Source: an uncultured Verrucomicrobiota bacterium
GTDB lineage: Bacteria > Verrucomicrobiota > Kiritimatiellia > CAIVKH01
DNA: 64,000 nt
Assembly: GCA_937872895.1 (NCBI GenBank)
Contig: CALMUP010000035.1
Location: 62,001 to 126,000, forward strand
Direction: 5' to 3'
The translations under genes were made by a program, and so were the position numbers. Positions 1,291 to 40,438 of the stretch are shown here, in pieces; position 1 is the first letter of the stretch; each line of letters starts with the position of its first letter. A model generated the notes under the pieces. The model searched no databases, had not been told where the DNA came from, and saw nothing but the letters and a program-made list of their open reading frames with translations.

Positions 1291-4200
1291 ATGAATAACG
1301 ACAATCCATATCCAGAGCTCCCCAGTTATTTAGAAAAAGTGCAGTCTCAGCTTCCTGCGCTTCAGCTGCTCGTTCAAATGGGATGGCAGTATCTGACCCC
1401 TGAAGAATGTGTTGAGTACCGAAACGGCCGCATGGGTACGGCTATACTCGAGCCGATTCTGACGGACCACATCCGTAATCATGCTCGCTACGAATTCAAG
1501 GGTAGCGAGAGGGCTTTCACGGAAAACGCGATCCAGAATGCGGTCCAGGCCTTGAAGGGATTCAGGGCCACGGGCGCAAGTCACGAAGACGAGCAGGCCT
1601 ACGACCTCCTGTGTCTTGGAACCAGTGTGCCACAGACGATCGAGGGGGACACGAAGAGTTTCACCATCGACTATATCGACTGGAAGCATCCGGACAACAA
1701 CACCTATCACTGCACGGCCGAGTACAAAGTGGAGCGCGTCGGGTACCAGAAGCACTACATCCCGGACATTGTACTCTTTGTGAATGGGATTCCGTTGGTG
1801 GTTATTGAGTGCAAGCGCAGCGCCTACACGGATATGAGAAAGGAGCCGATCGACCTGGCGATTGAGGACCTGAAAGACTACCAGGCAAAGGATGGCATCC
1901 CTCAGTTGTTCCTCTATTCCCAGCTCGTTCTGGCGTTGGCACGGGACAAAGCTGAATACGCAACCACGGGCACGCCACGGAAGTTCTGGAGCGTGTGGAA
2001 GGAAGGCAGGTTGGATGATGAGGTCCGTACCCTGATCGAAAAGCCCATGCCCGGAGATGAATTGGAAAAAATGCTGACCGTTCCATTTGAATTGGTCCGC
2101 AAAGAGTATCGCTCGATTCTTGCGCAAGGCAGGGCCGTCTATGAGCAGGATCGCCTTCTGTATGGGCTCTGCCGGCCTGAGCGGCTGATGGAGATTGTCT
2201 ATAAGTACATCGTGTTTGATCATGGCGACAAAAAGGTCGCCCGCTACCAGCAGTATTTTACCGTTCAGGACATTATGGCGCGGGTACGGTTGGGCAAGGA
2301 CGATGAGGCCCGGCGCGGCGGTGTGGTCTGGCATACGCAGGGCAGCGGCAAATCGCTGACTATGGTGATGCTGGCCAAGAGCCTGGCTTTGGCGAAAGAC
2401 ATCCTTAATCCAAAGGTCGTCATCGTCACCGACCGTATCGACCTGGATGACCAGATCAAGAATACCTTCCACGCCTGCGGGATGCTGCCCGATCAGGCCG
2501 CCACCGGAGAAGCGTTGGTTGATCTGCTGACGGATGAGAAGGCGCACATCGTCACAACGACCATTCACAAGTTTGGAGCCGCCGCCGGCAATCGACGGTT
2601 GAGGGGGGCCAGCCGGAATACCTTCGTGCTCGTGGACGAAGGCCACCGGAGCAACTACAGCGAATATCACACGCGGATGAAGATTGCCTTGAAAGGCGCC
2701 TGCTTTATCGCCTTTACCGGGACTCCGTTGGCGAAGAATGCGAAGCGAAACACGTTCGCCAAGTTCGGCGACTTGTTCCAACCGGCCTACACGATTGCCC
2801 GCGCAGTGGAAGACAAGGCCGTTGTTCCTCTGGTGTATGAGGCGCGGCATGTCCCGCAGCCGGTGGATCAGAGTGCGATCGATAGCTGGTTTGAAAAACT
2901 GACCATCGGTTTGAGCGAAGAGCAGCAGGTGGACCTGAAGAAGAAGTTCTCCAGTGAGCGTCAGCTTATGAAGGCGGCCCAGCGAATCAAGATGATCGCT
3001 TGGGATGTCTCGGTGCACTACTCCACGACGTATCAGGGCCTCGGGATGAAGGGGCAGTTGGTTGCGCCGGATAAAGAGTCCGCTCTCCTTTACAAGAAGT
3101 TCCTGGACGAATTCGGCATGGTGAAGTCCGAAGTGTTGATTTCGGCTCCATCCGTGCGCGAGGGAGAGGGCGAAAAAGAAGCCAGCGAAGAGGAAAAAGC
3201 GTTCTGGGACGCGATGATGGAAAGGTACGGTTCCGAGGATCGTTACAACAAACAGCTCATCAGCGCCTTCAAAAACGGAGAAGAGCCGGAGATTATCATC
3301 GTGGTGGATAAGCTGCTGACTGGCTTTGATGCCCCGTGTAATACGGTTCTGTATCTGGCGCGGAAGCTCAAGGACCACACGTTGTTGCAGGCCATCGCGC
3401 GGGTGAACCGTCTGTATGAGGGTAAGGAGTATGGTTTGGTTCTCGATTACAGCGGTGTCATCGATGATTTGGACGAGGCGATCGGGTTCTATGACAAGCT
3501 TGCTGACTATGACCGCGAAGACATCACCGAAACGGTGACCTATCTGGAGAACGAGGCGGCGCGGCTGCCGCAGTTGCACTCTGACTTATGGGAGTTGTTT
3601 ACGCTGGTGCGGGGGGCGAAGGACCCTGAGGCTTATGAGGAGCACCTTCGTGACGAGGAGCTTCGGAACAGGTTCTATGAGCGGTTTTCGTTGTTCGCGC
3701 GCACCCTAGCGCTTGCCCTATCCTCGACGGTGTTCATCGAAAAGACCGCGCCGAAGACGCTGAACCGGTACAAGCAGGACGTGAAATTCTTCCAGAATCT
3801 TCGGGCGGCCGTATCACTGCGGTATCAGGAACGGATCGACTTCTCCGAGTACGAGCAAAGGATCAGGAAGCTGCTCGATACCCACGTTGGAGCCGAGGAT
3901 GTAGTCCATTTGAGCGAGCCGATCAACCTGTTTGACTCGGCTGAACGCCAGAAGGTGTTGGACGACCAGGGCCGGAGCGCGAAGTCGAAGGCCGACCTTA
4001 TTGCATCGGCGACCAACCGGGCGATCGAGCGGGAAATGGAGAAGGACCCGGCGTTCTACAAGAAGTTCTCCAAGATGCTGGAAGATGTGCTGGAGGCAAT
4101 GCGGGCCAAGAGGATCGAGGCCTTGGAGGCCTTGGGCAAGATCGTGGACATCGCCACCAAGGTCGTGACCCATACGGATGATGACACGCCTTCGCTACTA

Positions 4201-4500
4201 GCCGGCAAAGATATGGCCCGGCGCTACTATGGCTGTATTCAGAGCGATCTGGCCGAAGCCGTCGGCATGGATCAGGCAACGGCCGCGGAAATCGCCCTGA
4301 CGATTGAGAAGCGAATCGCCGCACATCAGATCAGGGACTGGCGGGACAATCACGATGCCCTGAATAAGATGCGAGGTGAGATCGACGACATTCTCTACGA
4401 AAGGGCGCATGAGAAGGGAATGACCATCCCGCTCGATGTGCAGGATCGGCTGATTGACCGGTGCGTCGAGGTGGCGGTGGCCAACGAGGATATCCGATGA
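1291..4500 (+). CDS. hsdR: Type I restriction endonuclease, R (translocase/nuclease) subunit
   Basis: 1069 residues, normal for HsdR. The PD-(D/E)xK nuclease is visible as PDIVLFVNGIPLVVIECK (D159, E173, K175). The SF2 translocase follows, with Walker A QGSGKSLT (about 350-357), a DEGH box near 447, and AFTGTPL. The long helical C-terminal part probably docks on the HsdM/HsdS core. HsdR cleaves unmodified DNA after ATP-driven translocation. All catalytic motifs are present and the frame is intact, so it is likely functional if its partners exist outside the window. Its stop overlaps the start of the next gene (ATGA), which implies translational coupling. The family assignment is secure; specificity cannot be read because HsdS is not seen. 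Confidence 0.96.
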   Translation: MNNDNPYPELPSYLEKVQSQLPALQLLVQMGWQYLTPEECVEYRNGRMGTAILEPILTDHIRNHARYEFKGSERAFTENAIQNAVQALKGFRATGASHEDEQAYDLLCLGTSVPQTIEGDTKSFTIDYIDWKHPDNNTYHCTAEYKVERVGYQKHYIPDIVLFVNGIPLVVIECKRSAYTDMRKEPIDLAIEDLKDYQAKDGIPQLFLYSQLVLALARDKAEYATTGTPRKFWSVWKEGRLDDEVRTLIEKPMPGDELEKMLTVPFELVRKEYRSILAQGRAVYEQDRLLYGLCRPERLMEIVYKYIVFDHGDKKVARYQQYFTVQDIMARVRLGKDDEARRGGVVWHTQGSGKSLTMVMLAKSLALAKDILNPKVVIVTDRIDLDDQIKNTFHACGMLPDQAATGEALVDLLTDEKAHIVTTTIHKFGAAAGNRRLRGASRNTFVLVDEGHRSNYSEYHTRMKIALKGACFIAFTGTPLAKNAKRNTFAKFGDLFQPAYTIARAVEDKAVVPLVYEARHVPQPVDQSAIDSWFEKLTIGLSEEQQVDLKKKFSSERQLMKAAQRIKMIAWDVSVHYSTTYQGLGMKGQLVAPDKESALLYKKFLDEFGMVKSEVLISAPSVREGEGEKEASEEEKAFWDAMMERYGSEDRYNKQLISAFKNGEEPEIIIVVDKLLTGFDAPCNTVLYLARKLKDHTLLQAIARVNRLYEGKEYGLVLDYSGVIDDLDEAIGFYDKLADYDREDITETVTYLENEAARLPQLHSDLWELFTLVRGAKDPEAYEEHLRDEELRNRFYERFSLFARTLALALSSTVFIEKTAPKTLNRYKQDVKFFQNLRAAVSLRYQERIDFSEYEQRIRKLLDTHVGAEDVVHLSEPINLFDSAERQKVLDDQGRSAKSKADLIASATNRAIEREMEKDPAFYKKFSKMLEDVLEAMRAKRIEALEALGKIVDIATKVVTHTDDDTPSLLAGKDMARRYYGCIQSDLAEAVGMDQATAAEIALTIEKRIAAHQIRDWRDNHDALNKMRGEIDDILYERAHEKGMTIPLDVQDRLIDRCVEVAVANEDIR

Positions 4501-20641: not shown

Positions 20642-23089
20642 TTAGTTACGGATGGCGGACATGGCTTCTTCGACCCGGCGGTCGTAGTCGGTTTTGATGC
20701 CAGTCGGCCTTTTTGCCCGTCGCTTGGATGCCCGCCGGGCTTGTTCGTTGTATTGGACCGTACCCAGTGCGGCGAGCACGGCGTTGTAGGTCTGGGCTAA
20801 CGCGGTTCCGGAACGCGGCATGGCTCCGAAGATGCCAGAGTTGCCGGTGGTCATCAGACCCAGGCCCAACGCCTGCGATACCGGGCCGATACGTTCCTCG
20901 GGAAGATCGCGCCCGGTGCTGCGCTTGAAGGCATCGGCGCGACGTTGATCTGTGGTCTTTTCGGTACCCACCCACGGCAACGCCGCACGCCCTTCCGGCG
21001 ACCAAATGCCGGTTCCGCGTGCCTGCGCGACGGCCCGGGCGGCGTCGTAGGCGTCCGACTTGTCGGTGCGACCGGACAAGTCGCGGTAGTGGATGTCCAC
21101 CAAGCCTTCCTTGATCAGCTTCTTGTTCACGTCCACGGCGGGGATGACTTTGCCGACGTAGGGAATGCGAAGAAGGTTGTCGAACGGCTTGGGCAACGTT
21201 TCGACGACACCCAGTTTGCGGCCGTGTTTATCTAGGCCGCCGGCCTTCGGGTTGGAGTCGGACACAACCCGGACATATTGCCCCGGCTTGATTAACTCCT
21301 GAATCCTTGCGGCGGCGACGTCGCCCAAATATTCCGGCGGTTTCTTCGGCGTGGCTTTCAACTCCGGTGCATTGATATCAAGCATCCGGACGCCCTTGGT
21401 GGGATTCTTGTCGGTGAAGATGGTATCCCCGTCATAGGCATGTGAAGTCCGTTCCACCGAGGAACGCTTGCCAGTCTTGATCGCGTCGCCGATTTGCCAG
21501 TTCAGATACGCCGCGGCGGCGGGAGCGAAGGTCCACAATCCTTTCCCGGCCATGTTCTGCGGTTTGGAGGCAGCCAGTTTCTCCAGGGCTTGTTGGGCCT
21601 TGGCCGGAGAAAGTTCGCCACGGGCTTTGGCGTCCATGATGGCGTCGTATCCGGCACGGTACGCGCCCACCTGCGCATGGTACGCCGCAGTACCATATCG
21701 GGTCTGCTTTTCAAGCGGGTTGCCAGTGGTGCCCACCACACCGGCCAACAACGTTCCCACGATGCCGCGCGGATCGTCCACTGGATAGCTGAACGGCTTG
21801 CCGTCGCGGATCGCTTGGGCGGCCTGCTGTTGGTATTTGGAAATCTGCTTTTGGTCGTAGGCTTCCTTGGCGGTGAAACCCCCGGCCACATAGCCCGCCT
21901 TCTTCAGGCCGGAAATCGTATCGGCGCGAAGAGCGGTTCCCTTGGTGATGAGTTTGTCGGCGACCGCGTTCAACCGAGCCGCGCTCCCGGCGCTTTGACG
22001 GGCGGCGTCATCGACCGCCCAAAAGGCATCCGCTGCCTTGCGGTAGAGGCGCCCGGCATCGGGTGAACCGGCCAGCGATGCCTTGTGGGCATCGTTTAAG
22101 GCGGAAGTGGCTATATTCTGCAACTGTATCTTTTTGCCGGCGGCAGCGCTTTTGATCGCACTGGCCTGCGCCCGCATCCGGGCCGCGTCATCGATAAATC
22201 GCTGGGCGGTCTTCAGGTTTTTGGGTGCGCTGATGGCCTTGCCCAACTCCTTCAGCGAGGAGCCGGTGAAATCCGAAAACTTCGTATAACCGGCATGGGC
22301 TTTTTTGAGACCAGCCGCGATGGTCGGATTGAGCTTCCCATTGATCCACGTACCAGCCTGGCCCAGCCGGTCATCCACCATCTTCAATCCTTGTTTGGCT
22401 CTTCCCAGCGCGGACAGGCCACCACCTCCCGGCAAGGCTTTGAGCAATGCGCCGCCGTACTGCCCGACGGCTTTGAGAGCGCCCATAGAACCAACATACC
22501 CGGCCAATTGGCTGCCCATAGCCAGCGCCTTGTCGGTATAGGGATTGATTGTCGGATTCGCCATGCGGTAATCATCGATCACGGACTGCGAACCGAAACC
22601 AGCCACGGTGGCAATCGCACCGGCATGTTTGCCGGCGGCGGTACGCGCCAGCGACGTACCTTTCCACGCCGCGCCGAGTTTGGAGGCAACGCCGATACCC
22701 GCAGCGGCAAGGAGCGATTCCCGACTGACCGTGGCGGCAGCACGGGAAAAGGAATACTCCGGTCCCTGGTACTGACTTGATTGGGTGATTCCTAGTTTGT
22801 CGGAGAGACCAAACGACAACGTGTTGGCGGCGATGGATGCTCCGCCTCGCAACCCTTCCATGAAGCCGCTTACCGCCGCCGCCAGCACGCTTTGATTGGC
22901 TGGTGCTGGACGAACATTGGTAGAAGACGGCGATGGAGCCGTAGTCCCGCCAGATGTGGAGCCTTTTGATTTGCCGCCACCACCGCCACCACCACCGCCT
23001 GAGCGCATTCTGGCGAACATCGCTTTGCGTTGCGCGTCTTCCATCTCGCGGGCGCGGGCCGGCATGGCATTGACCAAGTAAAAGCTCAT
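20642..23089 (-). CDS. Large phage protein with N-terminal motif and C-terminal thermonuclease domain
   Basis: 815 residues. It opens with the recurring element motif (MEDAQRKAMFARM, 16-28, after N7) and a nine-glycine run. Residues 60-540 are Ala/Gly/Lys rich with several hydrophobic helices, resembling internal or membrane-inserting virion proteins. Residues about 544-700 form a staphylococcal-nuclease-like domain: AYDGDTIF, RMLDINAPE, DKHGRKLG and a late GLVDIHYRD. The start overlaps the upstream stop (ATGA). A virion-carried nuclease cargo is a reasonable inference, with processing at the motif possible. Confidence 0.75.
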   Translation of the reverse strand: MSFYLVNAMPARAREMEDAQRKAMFARMRSGGGGGGGGGKSKGSTSGGTTAPSPSSTNVRPAPANQSVLAAAVSGFMEGLRGGASIAANTLSFGLSDKLGITQSSQYQGPEYSFSRAAATVSRESLLAAAGIGVASKLGAAWKGTSLARTAAGKHAGAIATVAGFGSQSVIDDYRMANPTINPYTDKALAMGSQLAGYVGSMGALKAVGQYGGALLKALPGGGGLSALGRAKQGLKMVDDRLGQAGTWINGKLNPTIAAGLKKAHAGYTKFSDFTGSSLKELGKAISAPKNLKTAQRFIDDAARMRAQASAIKSAAAGKKIQLQNIATSALNDAHKASLAGSPDAGRLYRKAADAFWAVDDAARQSAGSAARLNAVADKLITKGTALRADTISGLKKAGYVAGGFTAKEAYDQKQISKYQQQAAQAIRDGKPFSYPVDDPRGIVGTLLAGVVGTTGNPLEKQTRYGTAAYHAQVGAYRAGYDAIMDAKARGELSPAKAQQALEKLAASKPQNMAGKGLWTFAPAAAAYLNWQIGDAIKTGKRSSVERTSHAYDGDTIFTDKNPTKGVRMLDINAPELKATPKKPPEYLGDVAAARIQELIKPGQYVRVVSDSNPKAGGLDKHGRKLGVVETLPKPFDNLLRIPYVGKVIPAVDVNKKLIKEGLVDIHYRDLSGRTDKSDAYDAARAVAQARGTGIWSPEGRAALPWVGTEKTTDQRRADAFKRSTGRDLPEERIGPVSQALGLGLMTTGNSGIFGAMPRSGTALAQTYNAVLAALGTVQYNEQARRASKRRAKRPTGIKTDYDRRVEEAMSAIRN

Positions 23090-27800: not shown

Positions 27801-28328
27801 ATGGGATCGCGAGGTCGAGGTCGTGCCCGAATCTGGACCTCCGGAGCTCGAAGAGCGTCCGCCGCTGCCGCCTTTCAGTTTGGCGAAGATGGCGCGGCGT
27901 TGAGCATCCGAGACGGAACGGTTGGTCATCACGGATTTCAACGAGGGATACTGGGCGACCAGATTACTCCATGCCTCGGGATTGCCATCCTTCAGCGATT
28001 GCAGGGTTGCCACATCGTTGTGGGCATAACTGATATTGCCCTTGGCGAAGGCGGAGGATCCGGCGGTGTAGGTCAACCATTCGCCTTGGGACGGGTCCGC
28101 CTTGGGTGCGAACCGGGTCGCGCCGGCGAGATCCCCGGCCTGTCCCTGTTTCACGACATGAGCACCAACACCAGACGGGGTGCCGCGGCCGGCATGGGGT
28201 CGTCCGGTGGCCCGCATCGAGGCGAAGATGGCCCGACGTTGTGCATCGGTCATCGGAGAACTGGAATTGCAAATAGGCGTGGCATGGACCACGCGGATGG
28301 AATTGGACAACAAGCGGAGAGTATTCAT
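24879..28328 (-). CDS. Polyprotein-like phage protein with five copies of the QRKAMFAK motif
   Basis: 1149 residues. Motif copies begin at N21, N136, N421, N700 and N855; each is an Asn followed by variants of M-S-D-E-Q-R-K-A-M-F-A-K and usually a Gly-rich run. They divide the protein into segments of about 115, 285, 280, 155 and 295 residues. Segment 2 has a long Pro/Ala linker (255-335). Segment 3 has a hydrophobic stretch (VDAALGVAALGLFAAGV). The final segment has a compact helical part and a Pro/Gly tail. No known domain is recognised. It is coupled to the portal gene by ATGA and to the protease gene by ATGA. Confidence 0.8.
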   Translation of the reverse strand: MNTLRLLSNSIRVVHATPICNSSSPMTDAQRRAIFASMRATGRPHAGRGTPSGVGAHVVKQGQAGDLAGATRFAPKADPSQGEWLTYTAGSSAFAKGNISYAHNDVATLQSLKDGNPEAWSNLVAQYPSLKSVMTNRSVSDAQRRAIFAKLKGGSGGRSSSSGGPDSGTTSTSRSHSDSFQVMGNKLTMSPELMAAAYGGNSKQQQYDMMKAMPPKPSKRYTGPDAIRQMERDNKAWLEQWGKNMAKLAQARVNTASAPVQPVPPPVTPAATATPPPSTPAPAANNSPSPNAASVPVATPSARGAPTMAVPSVATPAALAPVAAPSTPAVQSSLPITPVEYVPVRNTNVEELARLASIPGPNQAMYQNLLTQEQSRQAQAVQAGRPYIPSSQLTPQSPEWRDAKSYEQQVGLDEYGRLISNSGRSVSEMPDDQRKAVMAKLGGGGGAARGYTGGARGGKRGPARNPVMYVTPEGNDRAVRDAQIGIHSDLTPFDLFVSSAIEEGLDGISLARMNTDNKWVDAALGVAALGLFAAGVKNARTQKALTQHMSAQKHFNKVLEQMSRDAERFKPLLEPAGSSVGDDIYRTYDKIAERVTRARGYPPTDVEATRWLDKVAPRVDTIPPSRTGDIFRSEAARESGSRRAQLLDYARRADLDAISPRMVKDPWRSISDVIGESGIGNRSALQLIRAAVNESVVLCNAGPMSDEQRKAMFAKMGGTGGGSFKPGSRVRPATLGPSKRNPAPMTYNPKTGSTSTSLNPSTVGIADLGPYRETGGIKVQTPDDYLDYIRIVENPRRAKQGLPPVSEQEIADYIAQHYPDTNPENRPIPPAFLPPGLRLVSNAVRVANSHFLISNAGPMSDEQRKAMFAKSSGPGGRGVFAKSRPGPSTVSRAPISTSTLPLYTRTDMIRIDQGVGLPGSERPSRTMNLSRFDQLFESFKSMFPNEQGGIAYQMDVLLRPFRENPSAFFADPKAVDQLYKMIAPAVSGNTSSKNYETKRSALESSFYSEGLKILQAAGLMPGWVAHSTFGKDGFQGVRFWNERPAEFSAYPASYVKSGSASSLPTLIKRSVSGGGISPSRAGSYPAQAPRTPSGGYAPREAYPGGPVFYGPKPGEQGYIDIGQWRKGAQPQLPNKPGAKPSPIQQTDRK

Positions 28329-29584
28329 CGCATGCTCCTCAGGGGTAATGTTCGTTGACGGGCCGAAGCCAAGGAGACGACTCCCCGATTGGTGAGTACG
28401 GGCGCGGGGGTAACCTGTGCAGGTTCACCTCCGGGCGGTGCATCCATCAACTCCAACTTCAATCCTAGTTTTTCTTCGAGCTGACCTTGTTCAATCCGAT
28501 AGCCGGACCATGACAAGCCGGAAGCCGCTTCGATGATTTCTGAGAGGGTTTCCTGGGGTTGCGGCAAATCGTACTGGAAGTAAACGGCCACCGGGTAACC
28601 AGGAAAAAAGGCTTGGAGGACCGGCCGGTCGATATGCCGTTGGAACACCTCGGAGATTTTGGCCGCATCGGCACGGGCCAGTCCGATCAGAGTTTCGCTA
28701 TGCGCGTTGCCGGCCAAAGTGCCGCTGCCGCTTTGGGTCAGCATGGTCAAAAGTCCGCCGGTCGCGGCCATGACAATCTGCTTGTCGGCGTAATCGATGC
28801 GCTCGAAGTACGGCATTTTCGACCGGGCGGCTAGGTCGGTGATCTTCACGTCGGCCCCGTTGGGCAAGTAGCCGCGAAGGTTGCTGGTCACATTTTCGGC
28901 AAGTGTCAGGTATTCCTGCTCTTTTTCCGGCGTGGTGCCCGGAGGGCCAATGACAAAGATGGATTGGTTCGCACCGTTTTCCAACGCGATATCCCAGTCG
29001 GCCAGAGCCAGTTGTTTCGAGAAGAAATGCCGACCGATGGATTTGAACAGAGGATCGCCAGGATGAAATATCACGAGGTCGCGTTCGTCCACCGGTTGGC
29101 CATGATGTACACCCGGTTTTGATTCGGGATTGAAATACCAACGTTTCCCCTTGGTGTCGTAAATCCAGTACCAGGGCGGGATATGTTCCAGCCGGGCGAT
29201 GAGCGGTCCGTATCCGGTACGAACTTTTTCAAGATGGGAGTGTCCAGAGAAAATCCCCAAAGCTATTTTTTCCACTGCCTCTTTCAGGTTCTCGATCCGA
29301 TCATAGGCGTAACGAAGAACATCCGCCTGTTCCTGTGCCAGTACGGGATCCGCCGTCTCGACAATGCGTATTTCCCAGTCGAGGGAGTTGATATGCGACA
29401 AGCGTTTGGCCACTGCCGAGGCAACGGTTACGTCGGTTTGAACCATGTGGTGCCAGAACCACTGGAGGTCGGCCAGATCGCCCCGATTGGCCGATTCTTC
29501 CATGGCGACAATACGAGCCATCGTCAATCCTCGGAGAGGATTGTAATGGTCGCGCCAGTTAGGTTGTGGACGGTAATTGGCCAT
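28325..29584 (-). CDS. Portal protein, Mu gp29-like (DUF935)
   Basis: 419 residues from ATG 29584 (MANYRPQPNWRDHYNPLRGLT); in-frame ATGs at 29596 and 29635 are alternatives and none has a good ribosome site. DUF935 features are clear: DLQWFWHHMVQTDVTVASAVAKRLSHINSLDWEI, YDRIENLKEAVEKIALGIFSGHSHLE, WYFNPESKPG and the TLIGLARADAAKISEVFQRHIDRP region. It forms the ring through which DNA is packaged. The C-terminal tail is Pro-rich and ends LTNRGVVSLASARQR, a possible degenerate version of the element motif. Confidence 0.88.
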   Translation of the reverse strand: MANYRPQPNWRDHYNPLRGLTMARIVAMEESANRGDLADLQWFWHHMVQTDVTVASAVAKRLSHINSLDWEIRIVETADPVLAQEQADVLRYAYDRIENLKEAVEKIALGIFSGHSHLEKVRTGYGPLIARLEHIPPWYWIYDTKGKRWYFNPESKPGVHHGQPVDERDLVIFHPGDPLFKSIGRHFFSKQLALADWDIALENGANQSIFVIGPPGTTPEKEQEYLTLAENVTSNLRGYLPNGADVKITDLAARSKMPYFERIDYADKQIVMAATGGLLTMLTQSGSGTLAGNAHSETLIGLARADAAKISEVFQRHIDRPVLQAFFPGYPVAVYFQYDLPQPQETLSEIIEAASGLSWSGYRIEQGQLEEKLGLKLELMDAPPGGEPAQVTPAPVLTNRGVVSLASARQRTLPLRSMR

Positions 29585-29803
29585 ACATGGCGGCATACAC
29601 GAACGGCGGGGGTGGGGCAATGAAAGCACAGGCATAGCTGGCGACCCAAAATAATAGTATTTCGATACCGAAGATGCTGGCCGATGTGCCGGTAAGGTGA
29701 TGTAATCAAGGCCATGAGGAATAGCTGCAAGCTCAAGACGCGTACTCGCGGGCAGTCACATCATCCAGCGCAGCAGCTGCAATAAAAGTCATTAGGAGTA
29801 GAA

Positions 29804-30606: not shown

Positions 30607-31869
30607 TTAATAATTGATCCGTCTAGCTCTTGAAATTAGCAGCGGACTGTGTCGTCGCGCCTGAAAAATTCTTGCCGCGCCCGCCAGTTTGAACTGAAAC
30701 CGCTCTGAGTTGGCTAGGGCCAAAGCGATGACGCAGTCGTCATGGTAGCCACTTGGTGCGTTGTAGGTGATCGAGCCGTTCGGTGTGATCTCGTACTCGT
30801 ACCGCTTGAGTTCGTCGGTCACAACGGACCAGGTGGCGGGCCAGCCGATCTGCCGCTGTTCGATGGCGACGATGAGTCGCTGGATCAACTGGGCCTTGCT
30901 CAGGTTGGTCAGCTTGACCGGCTGGATCCGGGGCAGGACGTGTCGGAGGTCGTCGTATACCGGATCCCCGATGCCGGTGGCGTCCATGACAAGCAGCCCG
31001 TTGTGCTTGCGACAGAAGCTGACGATCCGCTCCTTCTGGATCGGCCAATCGAGATGATTGAATCGTTCTATGTCGAGGCACTGGCCGGTTTTCCGGTCCA
31101 TGGCGATCAGCACCGTGTGGTCGGTGTGCTTGGCCAAATCGCAACCGATGGCCACATCGTCGGTACGAGTAGCCGGGCCGGCCAGCAGGCAGGCATCGAC
31201 GTTGCGGAACACCCCGGCGCTGTCCTCGAGGAACTCGGCCATGTACTCCTGCCGGAACACGTCCGCCGGCAACGACCGCCGCGCTTCCTCCCACTCCTTG
31301 ACCGGAAAGTACGGGTTGGTGTTGCTCGCGAAGTGGAACGAGGCGTAGTCGGTTTCATTCGGATCATTCCCCCGCGTGTGCAGGTCGTAGAACCAGCCGC
31401 GGCCGTTCGGGGTGGAAATAAGCGTCGCCCAGCCCATCGTTTGGGCCAGGGTCGGGCGGATGGTGTAGTGCCACACGTCGGCCGGAATCCGCGCAGCCTC
31501 GTCGACCACGATGCCTTTGAAGCCTAGACCAAGGATCGACTCAGGGTTATCGGCGGACAGGAATAGAATGCGGGATGTGCCCACCGCGCCGTCCAGCTCG
31601 GCCCGGATAGGATTGCGGCCGGTGATGCGGACGAAATCCCCGGCAATGTCCCGAAGGGCCTCGACGCCGCGTTCAGCAATGAAGTAGGTCGGCGCGATCC
31701 AGGCGTAGTCGCCCGCCGCCTCCCCGCCGGCGCGGTCTAGGATTTCGGCGGCAAGGCAGAGCGTCTTTCCCCACCGGCGTCCGCAACAGACGATTCGGAA
31801 ACGTCGATCACGGGAGAGGTGGATGCATTGCTGGCCTTCATGCGGATCATATCGGGAAGCGAGAGCCAC
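30607..31869 (-). CDS. Terminase large subunit
   Basis: 420 residues from a GTG at 31869 with an excellent AAGGAGG seven bases upstream. Walker A is CCGRRWGKT (28-36); Walker B is IVVDEA (120-125). ISTPNGRGWFYDL is the coupling motif. The RNase H-fold nuclease has D244 in AIGCDLAKHTDH, D296 in LLVMDATGIGD and a late HDDCVIALALA. It pumps DNA into the prohead and cuts it. The gene overlaps the small subunit by 133 bases and converges with the AT-rich gene on the other strand. Confidence 0.93.
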   Translation of the reverse strand: MALASRYDPHEGQQCIHLSRDRRFRIVCCGRRWGKTLCLAAEILDRAGGEAAGDYAWIAPTYFIAERGVEALRDIAGDFVRITGRNPIRAELDGAVGTSRILFLSADNPESILGLGFKGIVVDEAARIPADVWHYTIRPTLAQTMGWATLISTPNGRGWFYDLHTRGNDPNETDYASFHFASNTNPYFPVKEWEEARRSLPADVFRQEYMAEFLEDSAGVFRNVDACLLAGPATRTDDVAIGCDLAKHTDHTVLIAMDRKTGQCLDIERFNHLDWPIQKERIVSFCRKHNGLLVMDATGIGDPVYDDLRHVLPRIQPVKLTNLSKAQLIQRLIVAIEQRQIGWPATWSVVTDELKRYEYEITPNGSITYNAPSGYHDDCVIALALANSERFQFKLAGAARIFQARRHSPLLISRARRINY

Positions 31870-36427: not shown

Positions 36428-36937
36428 CTATCGGGAAAACACGTAGGTTTTGCCTTCGTGCTGCACAAAATTAATCCCGTCGTGTTCGGCTTCTCGGGCG
36501 TAGGCGTCGAAGTCGAAAAACCATTTCAGGCGCTCGGGGATGGCGTTAAAAGCGGGGTCTTGTTCCAGCCATTCCTCGGCCCATTCCTGGGGGCTGTCGT
36601 AGGCGCCTAAAAAGGCGTCTTGTGCTTGTTCAAGGGTGCCGTCGGGAATGTCCTCGGTGTAAGCAGCTAACAGGTCGCGCTCGTCGTCGTCCATCTCCAG
36701 CCATTCCCACAAGCGGGGGTCAAGGTAGCTTTCGCCGTAAAACTCGCGGGGGAATCCCTCGAAGTCCTGAAACATAAGCTCGGGGTCGGCTTCGTCCTTG
36801 TGCAATTCAAGGCAGGCGTCGCGGAACGTCTCGGCGTCGTGGTCGTCCAAGTCGATCCAAGCGCCTTCAATGCTTCCGTTGTTGTACTTGGCATACGTGC
36901 CGACATAAACACGGGGGGTGGTTGTGGTGGTGTTCAT
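36428..36937 (-). CDS. ardA: ArdA-type antirestriction protein
   Basis: 169 residues, the usual size. It matches ArdA: RVYVGTYAKYNNGSIEGAWIDL at the start, an excess of Asp/Glu throughout that mimics DNA charge, LWEWLEMDDDERDLLAAYTED, and AFLGAYDSPQEWAEEWLEQ followed by LKWFFDFDAYAREAEHDGI. ArdA dimers occupy the DNA-binding groove of type I restriction and modification complexes. This host carries a type I R subunit at the left end of the window, so the target is present in the same segment. Confidence 0.93.
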   Translation of the reverse strand: MNTTTTTPRVYVGTYAKYNNGSIEGAWIDLDDHDAETFRDACLELHKDEADPELMFQDFEGFPREFYGESYLDPRLWEWLEMDDDERDLLAAYTEDIPDGTLEQAQDAFLGAYDSPQEWAEEWLEQDPAFNAIPERLKWFFDFDAYAREAEHDGINFVQHEGKTYVFSR

Positions 36938-36958
36938 GGTGTGGATTCTCCGGTGGTA

Positions 36959-37174
36959 TCAAGCGGGTTGCGTGTCGTCGTGAAGTTCAAGGCGGCGGTC
37001 CTGCGACATGCGCAACGCAAGCGAACGCGCACGGTCAAGGCTGGTGAGGCGGTACACTTTGGAACGGGGCTCGGCGTCTCCGTCTCCGACATAAACCGTC
37101 CATTCCGGTATTTCGTCGCCGGTTCTGCGGTCCTGCCGGGGTTCCGGTCCTTGGGCGTAAATGCAACGGGTCAT
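36959..37174 (-). CDS. Small hypothetical protein between ardA and radC
   Basis: 71 residues: MTRCIYAQGPEPRQDRRTG, then a short strand pair (EWTVYVGDG, SKVYRLTSL) and a helix (DRARSLALRMSQDR). Charged and soluble. It lies 21 bases from each neighbour on the same strand in an early-type gene block. Family not recognised. Confidence 0.55.
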   Translation of the reverse strand: MTRCIYAQGPEPRQDRRTGDEIPEWTVYVGDGDAEPRSKVYRLTSLDRARSLALRMSQDRRLELHDDTQPA

Positions 37175-37194
37175 GGTGTGTTGTTCCTTTCGGG

Positions 37195-37677
37195 TTACGT
37201 GGTGGAAAAGCTGACAAGGCCGGATTCGCGCAAGCTGGTGAATCCTTGGGGGTTTCGGTCGTTGGGCTGTCCGATTACGACATGATCTAAAACTTCAATG
37301 TCCATAATGCGGCCGGCCTCGATCAGTTGGCGGGTTAGTTTGATGTCCTCCCTGCTCGGGCTGGTGTCGCCGCTCGGGTGGTTGTGGGCCAGTATCACGG
37401 CGGAGGCGTTATCCATTACGGCACGGCGGAAAACCTCGCGGGGATGGACTAGGCAAGCATCCACGATGCCAAGACTGATCAAGTGCCGGTCAATCACGCG
37501 GTATTTCGTGTTCAAAGTGACCACGAAAAAGGCTTCTTGGGCCAGCGGTGCGCATAGCGGGGAAAGCTCGCGGTGACAATCGGCGGGGGTTCGGACCTCG
37601 ATGGGGCTGGTCTCGCGCATGATCGGCAAGGCAAGGTTCACGCTAATGGATGGGATGGGTTGGCGTTTCTTTTTCAT
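37195..37677 (-). CDS. RadC-like JAB-domain protein
   Basis: 160 residues corresponding to the C-terminal JAB/MPN domain of RadC: VVTLNTKYRVIDRHLISLGIVDACLVHPREVFR, then the zinc motif AHNHPSGDTSPSRED (HxH...SxxD) and EVLDHVVIG. The helix-hairpin-helix domain of full-length RadC is absent, as in many phage and plasmid copies. The molecular function is unresolved. The start overlaps the upstream stop (ATGA). Confidence 0.9.
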   Translation of the reverse strand: MKKKRQPIPSISVNLALPIMRETSPIEVRTPADCHRELSPLCAPLAQEAFFVVTLNTKYRVIDRHLISLGIVDACLVHPREVFRRAVMDNASAVILAHNHPSGDTSPSREDIKLTRQLIEAGRIMDIEVLDHVVIGQPNDRNPQGFTSLRESGLVSFSTT

Positions 37678-37846: not shown

Positions 37847-38110
37847 TTAAACGTGGGCAGTGTGGAACTTCTCGCCGGTGAACTTGTCCACCATCAAGGC
37901 GGTGGTGGTCATGGCGTCGGCAATGGCGCGTTCGCGCTCGCCGGTCAGGTATCCGCGCACAATTGAGTTGCGGACAATCGGGGCCACGAATTGCAACTTG
38001 CGGCCATGCCATCCGGCAACAAAGGCCATCGCGTAGGCTTTGCGGTGGTTCTCGCTGATGATCTCGGCGGGAATCTCGAACATCGGGGTTTTGGTTTCGG
38101 TCGTTGTCAT
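37847..38110 (-). CDS. Small hypothetical protein (87 aa)
   Basis: Start ATG 38110 with AGGAG upstream. 87 residues, mostly helical (SENHRKAYAMAFVAGWHGRK, RERAIADAMTTTALMVDKFTGEKF). No family recognised. It is the first gene after the structured noncoding region and 11 bases before the next gene, so the noncoding region could serve as its leader if transcribed on the - strand. Confidence 0.65.
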   Translation of the reverse strand: MTTTETKTPMFEIPAEIISENHRKAYAMAFVAGWHGRKLQFVAPIVRNSIVRGYLTGERERAIADAMTTTALMVDKFTGEKFHTAHV

Positions 38111-38242
38111 GTTCTTTCTCCTGTGTTTCTTGTGCTTTGCACCACGCATCGCACTCGCACACTCCATGGCGAATCAGGAGAAAGGCCGGCCCCGTCAGGC
38201 CCATCGCGGACCGGATTTCCTTCACCGAAACGAACAGGATGC

Positions 38243-39003
38243 CCGTCTCCCGGACGGCGACCGAGCGACCCAACTGGGGGCCGGGGGGTTCCACCCGGTT
38301 GGCGAGCGACCAAGCCGTCCGAAGGACGGAAGCAAGCGATTGGGAGGGCGGCCCGATCAGTAAAACGGACCGGCGGCAACGGCTTTCCAGGGCCGTCTTT
38401 GATGACGCGCGGAGTCTGCGAAGCGAGGCCCCACCGCTTGCGGTATAATCAGGGGCCGTTCGTCACCCGACCTTTTGCGTTCCCGGTTCGGTGTACCGGG
38501 CAAGATCCAGCGACGTTCAGGAGCGGAAGCCCGAAGTCATGAGGGGATCACCGGCCTACCGGTGATGGAAATGGAGACCGGGGGAAGCCCCGGCCTTAGC
38601 GGGGCCGCCACCTCCGGCGACGACCCGGGATCGCGACCGGGCCGACCAGCGGTGGTTATGTGCTTTTAGCGACCACCGCGGCAGAAGGCCCGACCAAGGG
38701 CGCTCTACTGCGCCCGCGGGTATCGCGATGGAACACGAGTGCGGGACGTGTCCGGACCTGCTTCGGATCACACACCACGATGGAGGCCGCTTTGATTGGT
38801 GCGGCCTGGAAACCGCCGCTTGGAGCGGTGCGGCGGTCCGCCCATCGCTTTGCGTTGTGCGATGGGCACACCGAGGCGGCGCGTCGTCGTGCCGCCGAAG
38901 GTCTTAGCGCACGGTGTCCTGCGCCGGGGTGGAAAGCGTTGAGATCACCCCGATGCGTTGCGCAATCGGGGAAGCTCGACGCGGAGGCGGGCATCCCGCC
39001 TCC
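38243..39003. ncRNA. Candidate large structured noncoding RNA
   Basis: No coherent protein is encoded between the MazG-like gene and 38110. Instead about 760 GC-rich bases hold consecutive perfect hairpins. Examples: 38243-38257, 38315-38329, 38427-38457 (GGCCCC/GGGGCC enclosing ACCG-CTTG-CGGT), 38482-38500, 38547-38566 (8 bp), 38578-38593, 38649-38679 (8 bp), 38698-38715, 38784-38807 (7 bp), 38812-38837 (8 bp), 38841-38866 (8 bp), 38875-38896, 38948-38971 (10 bp with one bulge) and 38983-39003 (9 bp). The CTTG tetraloop mildly favours the + strand. I do not recognise it as a named class; GOLLD- or ROOL-like giant phage RNAs are the obvious comparison. Confidence 0.55.
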
Positions 39004-39006
39004 ACA

Positions 39007-39342
39007 TCATGCCTTCTTATTTCCGTGCCGGTAGGCCCGGCTCTTGTTGTGTTCGTGTTTGAGGGAAACAGCGCGTTCGATGTCCACATTCAACCTGCCG
39101 CAGGCATCCAACGTACGGATGATAATATCTGCCATCTCCTCTTCGAGGTAGGTCAGCCCGGCATCCTTGTCACACGGCTGATTTAACTGTCCCTTCCGAT
39201 GGGCTTCCCAAAGCTCCGAAAGTTCGCCGTGGGTGTTGGCCACGAAGCGGGCCATGAATTGATCATCGGCTTCCGGCTGGTCATACCAGCCCTTCTCGCG
39301 GGCCAGGGCATGAAGTTCGTCACGGAGTTCATTCAGGTTCAT
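39007..39342 (-). CDS. MazG-like nucleotide pyrophosphohydrolase
   Basis: 111 residues from ATG 39342. The all-alpha NTP-PPase pattern is visible: ANTHGELSELWEAHRKGQ (ExxE on the first metal helix) and YLEEEMADIIIRTLDACGRLNVDIERAV (EExxD on the second), then KHEHNKSRAYRHGNKKA. It hydrolyses (d)NTPs to NMPs; phage copies can adjust nucleotide pools or blunt alarmone signalling. A 9-bp hairpin follows the stop on the - strand. Confidence 0.9.
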   Translation of the reverse strand: MNLNELRDELHALAREKGWYDQPEADDQFMARFVANTHGELSELWEAHRKGQLNQPCDKDAGLTYLEEEMADIIIRTLDACGRLNVDIERAVSLKHEHNKSRAYRHGNKKA

Positions 39343-40327: not shown

Positions 40328-40438
40328 GCCATGAAGTAGAACCTCGCCGAAGCGGCTCGGTTCACTTCATGGCACAGCCTCGAGGTTCTACTTCATGGCC
40401 AACGGTGCAGTGAGCCGCTTTGGGCTCTACTGCACCGT
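40328..40438. repeat. Cluster of nested palindromes (REP-like)
   Basis: GCCATGAAGTAGAACCTCG (40328-40346) has a perfect 19-base inverted copy at 40381-40399. Between them ACTTCATGGC gives the first arm a second, shorter partner, so two alternative hairpins are possible. A third hairpin, ACGGTGCAG/CTGCACCGT with inner GAGCC/GGCTC, occupies 40402-40438 and has the same layout. The cluster sits between the right end of the phage-like element and a GIY-YIG gene. Confidence 0.7.

Follow-up and report, generated by a model that had tools for sequence, protein, structure and literature searches.

The window we analyzed, a 64-kb stretch of a 3.87-Mb draft genome (G000:C35), contains a hairpin-rich noncoding element (38243-39003, + strand as the presumed RNA sense) that sits inside a prophage and matches no Rfam family and no protein family. 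Among large, structured noncoding elements of phages it constitutes a new family, and its nature, judged from sequence, is probably RNA. We put a probability of roughly 0.58 on the reading that the element is the noncoding core of an uncatalogued family of large structured phage RNAs with modular loops, which would act as a multivalent scaffold or sponge. Its members so far come from a small number of tailed phages and prophages, all within one class of Verrucomicrobiota.

Counting perfect stem-loops with a stem of at least 6 bp and a loop of 3-10 nt, we found 11 non-overlapping hairpins in 38243-39003, whereas 200 dinucleotide shuffles averaged 2.2 and never exceeded 7, and a sliding scan gave this region the top hairpin count along the 64-kb window. 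The minimum free energy (MFE) of folding lay below that of all 20 shuffles on both strands (+ strand, -394.9 kcal/mol vs -359.2, z -4.1, 0/20; - strand, -386.2 vs -336.5, z -8.9, 0/20). When 190-nt pieces were folded separately, the excess appeared in 38623-39003 (38813-39002, z -6.2 on the + strand and -8.3 on the - strand), and the pieces 38243-38432 and 38433-38622 behaved like shuffled sequence (z -1.1 to +0.6). The hairpin excess is likewise confined to ~38540-39003, which we regard as the core of the element. The open reading frames (ORFs) overlapping the element have no Pfam or PHROGs match, 1-nt indels occur when the homologous 3' domains are aligned, and for these reasons we conclude that no protein is encoded. 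The original prediction had described about 760 bases of back-to-back perfect hairpins encoding no protein; the hairpins and the absence of a protein were borne out, and the extent holds for ~38540-39003 and fails for 38243 to ~38540. It had also suggested switching between mutually exclusive hairpins at 38578-38605. These are overlapping GC-rich alternatives that no homologue covers, so we see no evidence of switching and that part of the proposal is unsupported.

The 5' part (38243-38539, + strand) has few hairpins, folds at the shuffled level and returned nothing in the homologue search; the lack of surplus structure and of homologues in this 5' half counts against the RNA-family reading. 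The central body (38540-38783, + strand) is a succession of hairpins with perfect stems (for example 38547-38566, 38587-38605 and 38698-38715), and no homologue covers it either. Three hairpins with a common loop module follow on the + strand at an exact spacing of 29 nt: AGGC-CGC[TTTGATTGGT]GCG-GCCT (38784-38807), ACCGC-CGC[TTGGAGCGGT]GCG-GCGGT (38812-38837) and GCCCAT-CGC[TTTGCGTTGT]GCG-ATGGGC (38840-38867). All three present a 10-nt loop, UUKGNNNKGU, between CGC and GCG on outer stems that are unrelated to one another. Their shared motif, CGCTTKGNNNKGTGCG, occurs three times in the whole 3.87-Mb genome, each time in the element (38788, 38817 and 38846), and the reversed-pattern control gave 1+1. 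In a genome of the same genus (G001) the motif has one copy (L110:8591-8606), 1.4 kb upstream of a remnant of the 3' domain and on the same strand. A further perfect stem, GGCGGCGCG/CGUGCCGCC (38875-38896, + strand), stands directly 5' of the conserved 3' domain (38906-39003, + strand). This domain of ~80-100 nt is built from an internal-loop stem bearing a second stem, followed by a GC-rich terminal hairpin. In the window it comprises a hairpin at 38907-38924, stem A (38937-38943/38975-38981), inner stem B (38948-38957/38961-38971) and the terminal hairpin (38983-39003), all on the + strand, and an asymmetric internal loop, AUCR / AAG, is conserved within it.

Only 38906-39003 has homologues detectable across genomes. 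BLASTN against 193 relatives returned one real partner (G060, locus L007), covering the last 100 nt, and between this sequence and the window five base pairs have changed on both sides with pairing kept. A covariance model built from these two sequences (R1) recovered further copies in G097 and G158. Run on the class of 346 genomes, a second model (R2), built from 12 sequences, detected 12 copies in G097, a single copy in each of G158, G060 and the window's own genome, and two decayed copies in G001; a sample of the phylum added none. The window's domain scores 112 bits with R1 and 74 bits with R2. The covariance model had a single match among IMG/VR contigs, L200, which lies midway along a viral contig of 40 kb with a terminase, a Mu portal and a protease. 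BLASTN against phage and plasmid collections gave no match, and searches with the flanking genes gave few relatives. We discarded all inspected viral matches of a first pattern scan of viral contigs as apparent coding sequence matched by chance, with the hairpin absent, and also L004 (G123), a chance match within a coding gene.

Across 16 sequences, the three helices of the 3' domain contain 22 double-change cells, versus 6.6 +- 2.0 after shuffling (0/500); covariation also exceeded column shuffles with 12 sequences, and sliding the pairing partners by 1-3 columns left at most one double-change cell. The base pairing of the 3' domain is thus conserved through compensatory changes. The region might be something more mundane, a GC-rich intergenic spacer that separates convergent genes and has a terminator hairpin, its remaining hairpins being due to chance, and these data also bear on that possibility. 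Its GC content of 65% and the position of the terminal hairpin, a few bases from the stop codon of the neighboring MazG-like gene, would suit this explanation, but the hairpin count far above dinucleotide shuffles and the covariation far above column shuffles make it highly improbable for the element. For 38784-39003 it is refuted by the hairpin density, the genome-unique loop motif and the covariation, and the 5' part (38243-38540) could still be ordinary intergenic sequence.

In the relatives the 3' domain is accompanied by much longer noncoding sequence. It follows or sits within kilobase-length noncoding arrays of ~300-nt units in G097, G158 and L200, and another viral contig (L299) carries the repeat units with no detectable 3' domain. 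The units (L200/L122/L123/L125-L128) align and fold into a common multi-helix shape, with compensatory changes at 30 of the 106 predicted pairs and a covariation measure of 0.076, compared with 0.004-0.021 when the partners were slid. Within these arrays, the hexaloop UAUCCU is invariant on 31 perfect hairpins with 10 different stems (L200, L299, L122, L123, L127). Every one of them has a C-G closing pair and shares its strand with the 3' domain or units; counting both strands of the five loci, 31 of the 35 occurrences of the hexamer lie in such loops. The array stretch adjoins terminase genes in L200, L299, L123 and L127. The window element is a small-scale version of this design, with three hairpins that share the same closing pairs and have similar 10-nt loops. 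Two weak candidates for unit homologues, L315 and L316, were set aside because on reading they look like coding sequence surrounding the search seed.

Repetition of this kind could also come from selfish palindromic repeats (REP/BIME or MITE-like) that multiply in genomes and landed in prophages by chance. As in REP/BIME sequences, there are many palindromes in noncoding DNA and multiple copies within one genome (G097), in mosaic tandem arrangements. The element differs in occupying few loci, mostly phage, in extending over hundreds of bases, in being strand-oriented and in having a conserved end domain, and no transposase link was seen. The G097 units are not dispersed but restricted to a handful of contigs as ordered arrays with similar order, several adjoining phage genes; furthermore, the 3' domain is single-copy in G000 and G158, and two independent viral contigs carry units. 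We therefore consider selfish repeats improbable.

The prophage genes around the element are encoded on the minus strand. They include a terminase large subunit (30607-31869) and a Mu-type portal (28325-29635), both recognized by Pfam and PHROGs, a Mu-like protease, an early region with ArdA antirestriction and RadC-type genes (36428-37677, Pfam), a RusA-like resolvase and a MazG-like nucleotide pyrophosphohydrolase (39007-39342; PHROG 3301 pyrophosphatase, E 7e-21). On one side the element borders the MazG-like gene, and on the other a small phage ORF with no known function (37847-38167, - strand), which was taken from the ORF list and has no PHROG. The MazG-like gene is convergent with the element, a few bases separate its stop codon from the terminal hairpin, and the adjacency of gene and element is kept in the decayed copies of L110. 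At that locus (L110:5580-8720), the MazG 3' end together with the 3' domain is present twice, in decayed form, beside a tRNA-Leu gene; one copy has a sulfatase-modifying-factor-like gene upstream, and the whole looks like a mobile-element insertion site with remnants. In G060 (L007:188-2973) the 3' domain adjoins a Schlafen-group-3 helicase/S24 gene and a MazG-like gene, so that MazG is nearby again. No tRNA gene was found in the 64-kb window or in the L200 locus, in contrast to where GOLLD and ROOL usually occur.

The phage of L200/L288, another carrier of the element, has a terminase 63% and a portal 42% identical to those of the window prophage. Terminase relatives occur in 30 of the 346 genomes of the class, and only two of these (G000 and G097) have the 3' domain. 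It had no match in 15 loci from terminase-bearing relatives, several of which hold little sequence upstream of the terminase, and a second prophage of the same genome (G000:C1:53883-55112, terminase 87% identical) is without it in the 14 kb examined. We accordingly rejected a 3' domain common to all members of this phage lineage, with 0 of the 15 terminase-relative loci matching. Because related prophages do without the domain, the element is accessory and dispensable for the lineage, which we count against our main reading. Two prophages with related terminases have a long, apparently noncoding, hairpin-rich stretch of their own upstream of the terminase (L351:1700-3500 and L359:2300-3100). 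These stretches have common blocks (e.g. CATGATGTTYGGGATCA...GCCGAGGTAGGA), are unrelated to R2, have no Rfam match, and may be another structured element.

Conserved pairing fits an RNA as well as a DNA hairpin element, and we therefore applied tests of G-U pairing and loop composition with the RNase P RNAs of the same family as the control. In helices predicted on both strands, the units have 28 G-U versus 29 A-C cells, and RNase P 55 versus 10. With a stricter count, limited to interruptions flanked by Watson-Crick pairs, the units have 11 G-U versus 4 A-C sites and RNase P 21 versus 4. In MFE folds of the + strand, unpaired A exceeds unpaired U (0.33 vs 0.16 in the units), the same direction as in RNase P RNA, and the loop composition of L007 is also RNA-like on this strand. 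Among the perfect hairpins, however, + strand loops are not rich in A: those of the arrays have 150 A and 157 T, those of the window 9 A and 30 T. Folding z-scores did not separate the strands, either in the units or in RNase P RNA, and no sigma-70-like promoter was found in 38000-39150, which counts against an RNA. Weighing these results together, we consider it somewhat more likely than not that the element acts as RNA, with the + strand as the likelier sense.

The same tests are where a DNA element has to be weighed, that is, hairpins extruded or recognized as double- or single-stranded DNA, for instance in a phage packaging, replication or recombination region, the pairing being kept through recognition of palindromic sites or through template switching that repairs quasi-palindromes. 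Such an element would explain why both strands fold about equally well beyond shuffles, why the units show no clear G-U preference in the simpler count and why the perfect-hairpin loops are without an A bias, and the noncoding region adjoins terminase genes in L200, L299 and L123. However, the stricter G-U count does not separate the units from RNase P RNA, the MFE loop composition is RNA-like on the + strand in the units and L007, and the 3' domain conserves an asymmetric internal loop. The window element is moreover ~6 kb away from the terminase, and related prophages without the 3' domain would be odd for an essential DNA site. Taken together, we regard a DNA element, including its palindrome-recognition and template-switching versions, as unlikely but as a serious alternative.

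For the preferred RNA reading, we infer transcription, strand, partner and function as follows. A transcript would be made during phage development, and the terminal hairpin would end or protect it. The variable 5' body consists of repeated hairpin modules, in which the stems change with pairing kept and the loops stay alike: in the window the three CGC-[UUKGNNNKGU]-GCG hairpins, in relatives the UAUCCU-loop hairpins with CGC/GCG closing and the ~300-nt multi-helix units. Alike loops on stems that change by compensation would be expected of hairpins that each present the same site to the same partner, and the repeated loops would offer many binding sites for this partner, either a protein or another RNA through loop pairing. 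It is this pattern of same loop and changing stem that suggests a multivalent scaffold or sponge. The 3' domain may be an end cap or an assembly piece. GOLLD and ROOL have recently been shown to form RNA-only cages, their functions being poorly understood, and the RNA of the element might self-assemble as they do. Since the loops are conserved and the stems are not, a repeated binding module is indicated, and what a giant phage RNA binds becomes a directly testable question.

In having many short hairpins with different stems and the same loop (UAUCCU; CGC-UUKG...GU-GCG), the family resembles sponges of the CsrB/RsmZ type, and a sponge function would be by analogy. Hairpins with GGA loops are a known ligand of CsrA, with the consensus ANGGAN. 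The element differs from CsrB/RsmZ in lacking repeated GGA loops on the presumed strand, in being phage-borne, in having no Rfam match and in adding a conserved 3' domain and large multi-helix units. When loops were inspected for GGA, the + strand gave UAUCCU in the relatives and UUKGNNNKGU in the window, and the opposite strand gave AGGAUA in the relatives only. One could suppose that the opposite strand is the functional one, with AGGAUA close to the GGA loops by which CsrB/RsmZ titrate CsrA, or with the loop as a Shine-Dalgarno mimic, and a hexaloop invariant on 10 stems that yields a GGA of the kind CsrA binds would agree with this. Yet the GGA register of the hexaloop is one base off the consensus, the three window loops have no common GGA on either strand, and the opposite strand of L200 is oriented against the terminase operon, leaving an opposite-strand sponge a very slim chance.

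Rfam 15 assigned no family to the window at the gathering threshold, and at E up to 10 it returned weak chance-level matches alone, with GOLLD, ROOL and OLE not among them. The relatives gave no family at gathering or relaxed thresholds; weak microRNA matches on L200, far below gathering scores, were taken as chance. No Rfam model for group II introns, HEARO or other catalogued structured RNAs matched. In the open-access literature, a scope that leaves most subscription papers outside, the known large 'ornate' RNAs are GOLLD, ROOL and OLE, and no description of an element like this one in phages of Verrucomicrobiota was found. The genomic setting of GOLLD is often close to tRNA islands, and we know of no description of repeated common-loop hairpins and tandem 300-nt units for it. 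GOLLD is a phage- and prophage-borne noncoding RNA of ~800 nt whose 3' region is conserved and whose 5' region is less so (PMC12286853). Our element is also phage-borne, noncoding and of similar length, with a conserved 3' and a variable 5' part, a likeness for which we claim no homology, and it differs in that the Rfam model does not match and no tRNA is nearby. ROOL is likewise a large, elaborate RNA encoded by phages and prophages, with no known protein partner (PMC12286853). The element resembles it in being large, elaborate, phage- or prophage-borne and with no known protein partner, but the ROOL model in Rfam does not match either, there is no tRNA island, and the layout of the element is modular and repetitive.

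The original prediction of a candidate giant phage RNA that could not be matched to GOLLD or ROOL is partly supported. Its phage location (prophage genes around the element and a homologue beside a terminase in mid viral contig), its noncoding character, its folding beyond dinucleotide shuffles, its covariation among homologues and the negative GOLLD and ROOL models agree with it, the proposed switching is unsupported, and its action as an RNA is probable. A further family with a different, modular layout, in a poorly studied host phylum, provides an independent case beside GOLLD and ROOL. A bolder version, a new class of kilobase-scale phage RNA built as a modular multivalent array and defined by invariant loops on swapped stems (UAUCCU in one branch, UUKGNNNKGU in that of the window), 300-nt units and a conserved 3' cap, is possible, though we hold it at somewhat less than even odds. 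While a phage infects Verrucomicrobiota, an RNA of this kind could assemble from RNA alone, or could titrate either the translation machinery or an RNA-binding protein of the host.

Other features of the window deserve mention. Near the right side of the prophage, overlapping inverted repeats (40328-40423), one pair with perfect 19-nt arms, GCCATGAAGTAGAACCTCG, separated by 34 nt and another of 17 nt, lie directly before an ORF resembling a GIY-YIG domain protein, and their folding z-scores are strong on both strands (-5.7 to -6.1). A prophage protein of 815 aa (20642-23089) has a staphylococcal-nuclease-type domain near its C terminus. Finally, a Type I restriction HsdR gene lies in a stretch whose GC content is lower and whose GC skew is strong (1291-4500 and 5-12 kb), apparently a separately acquired defence island.
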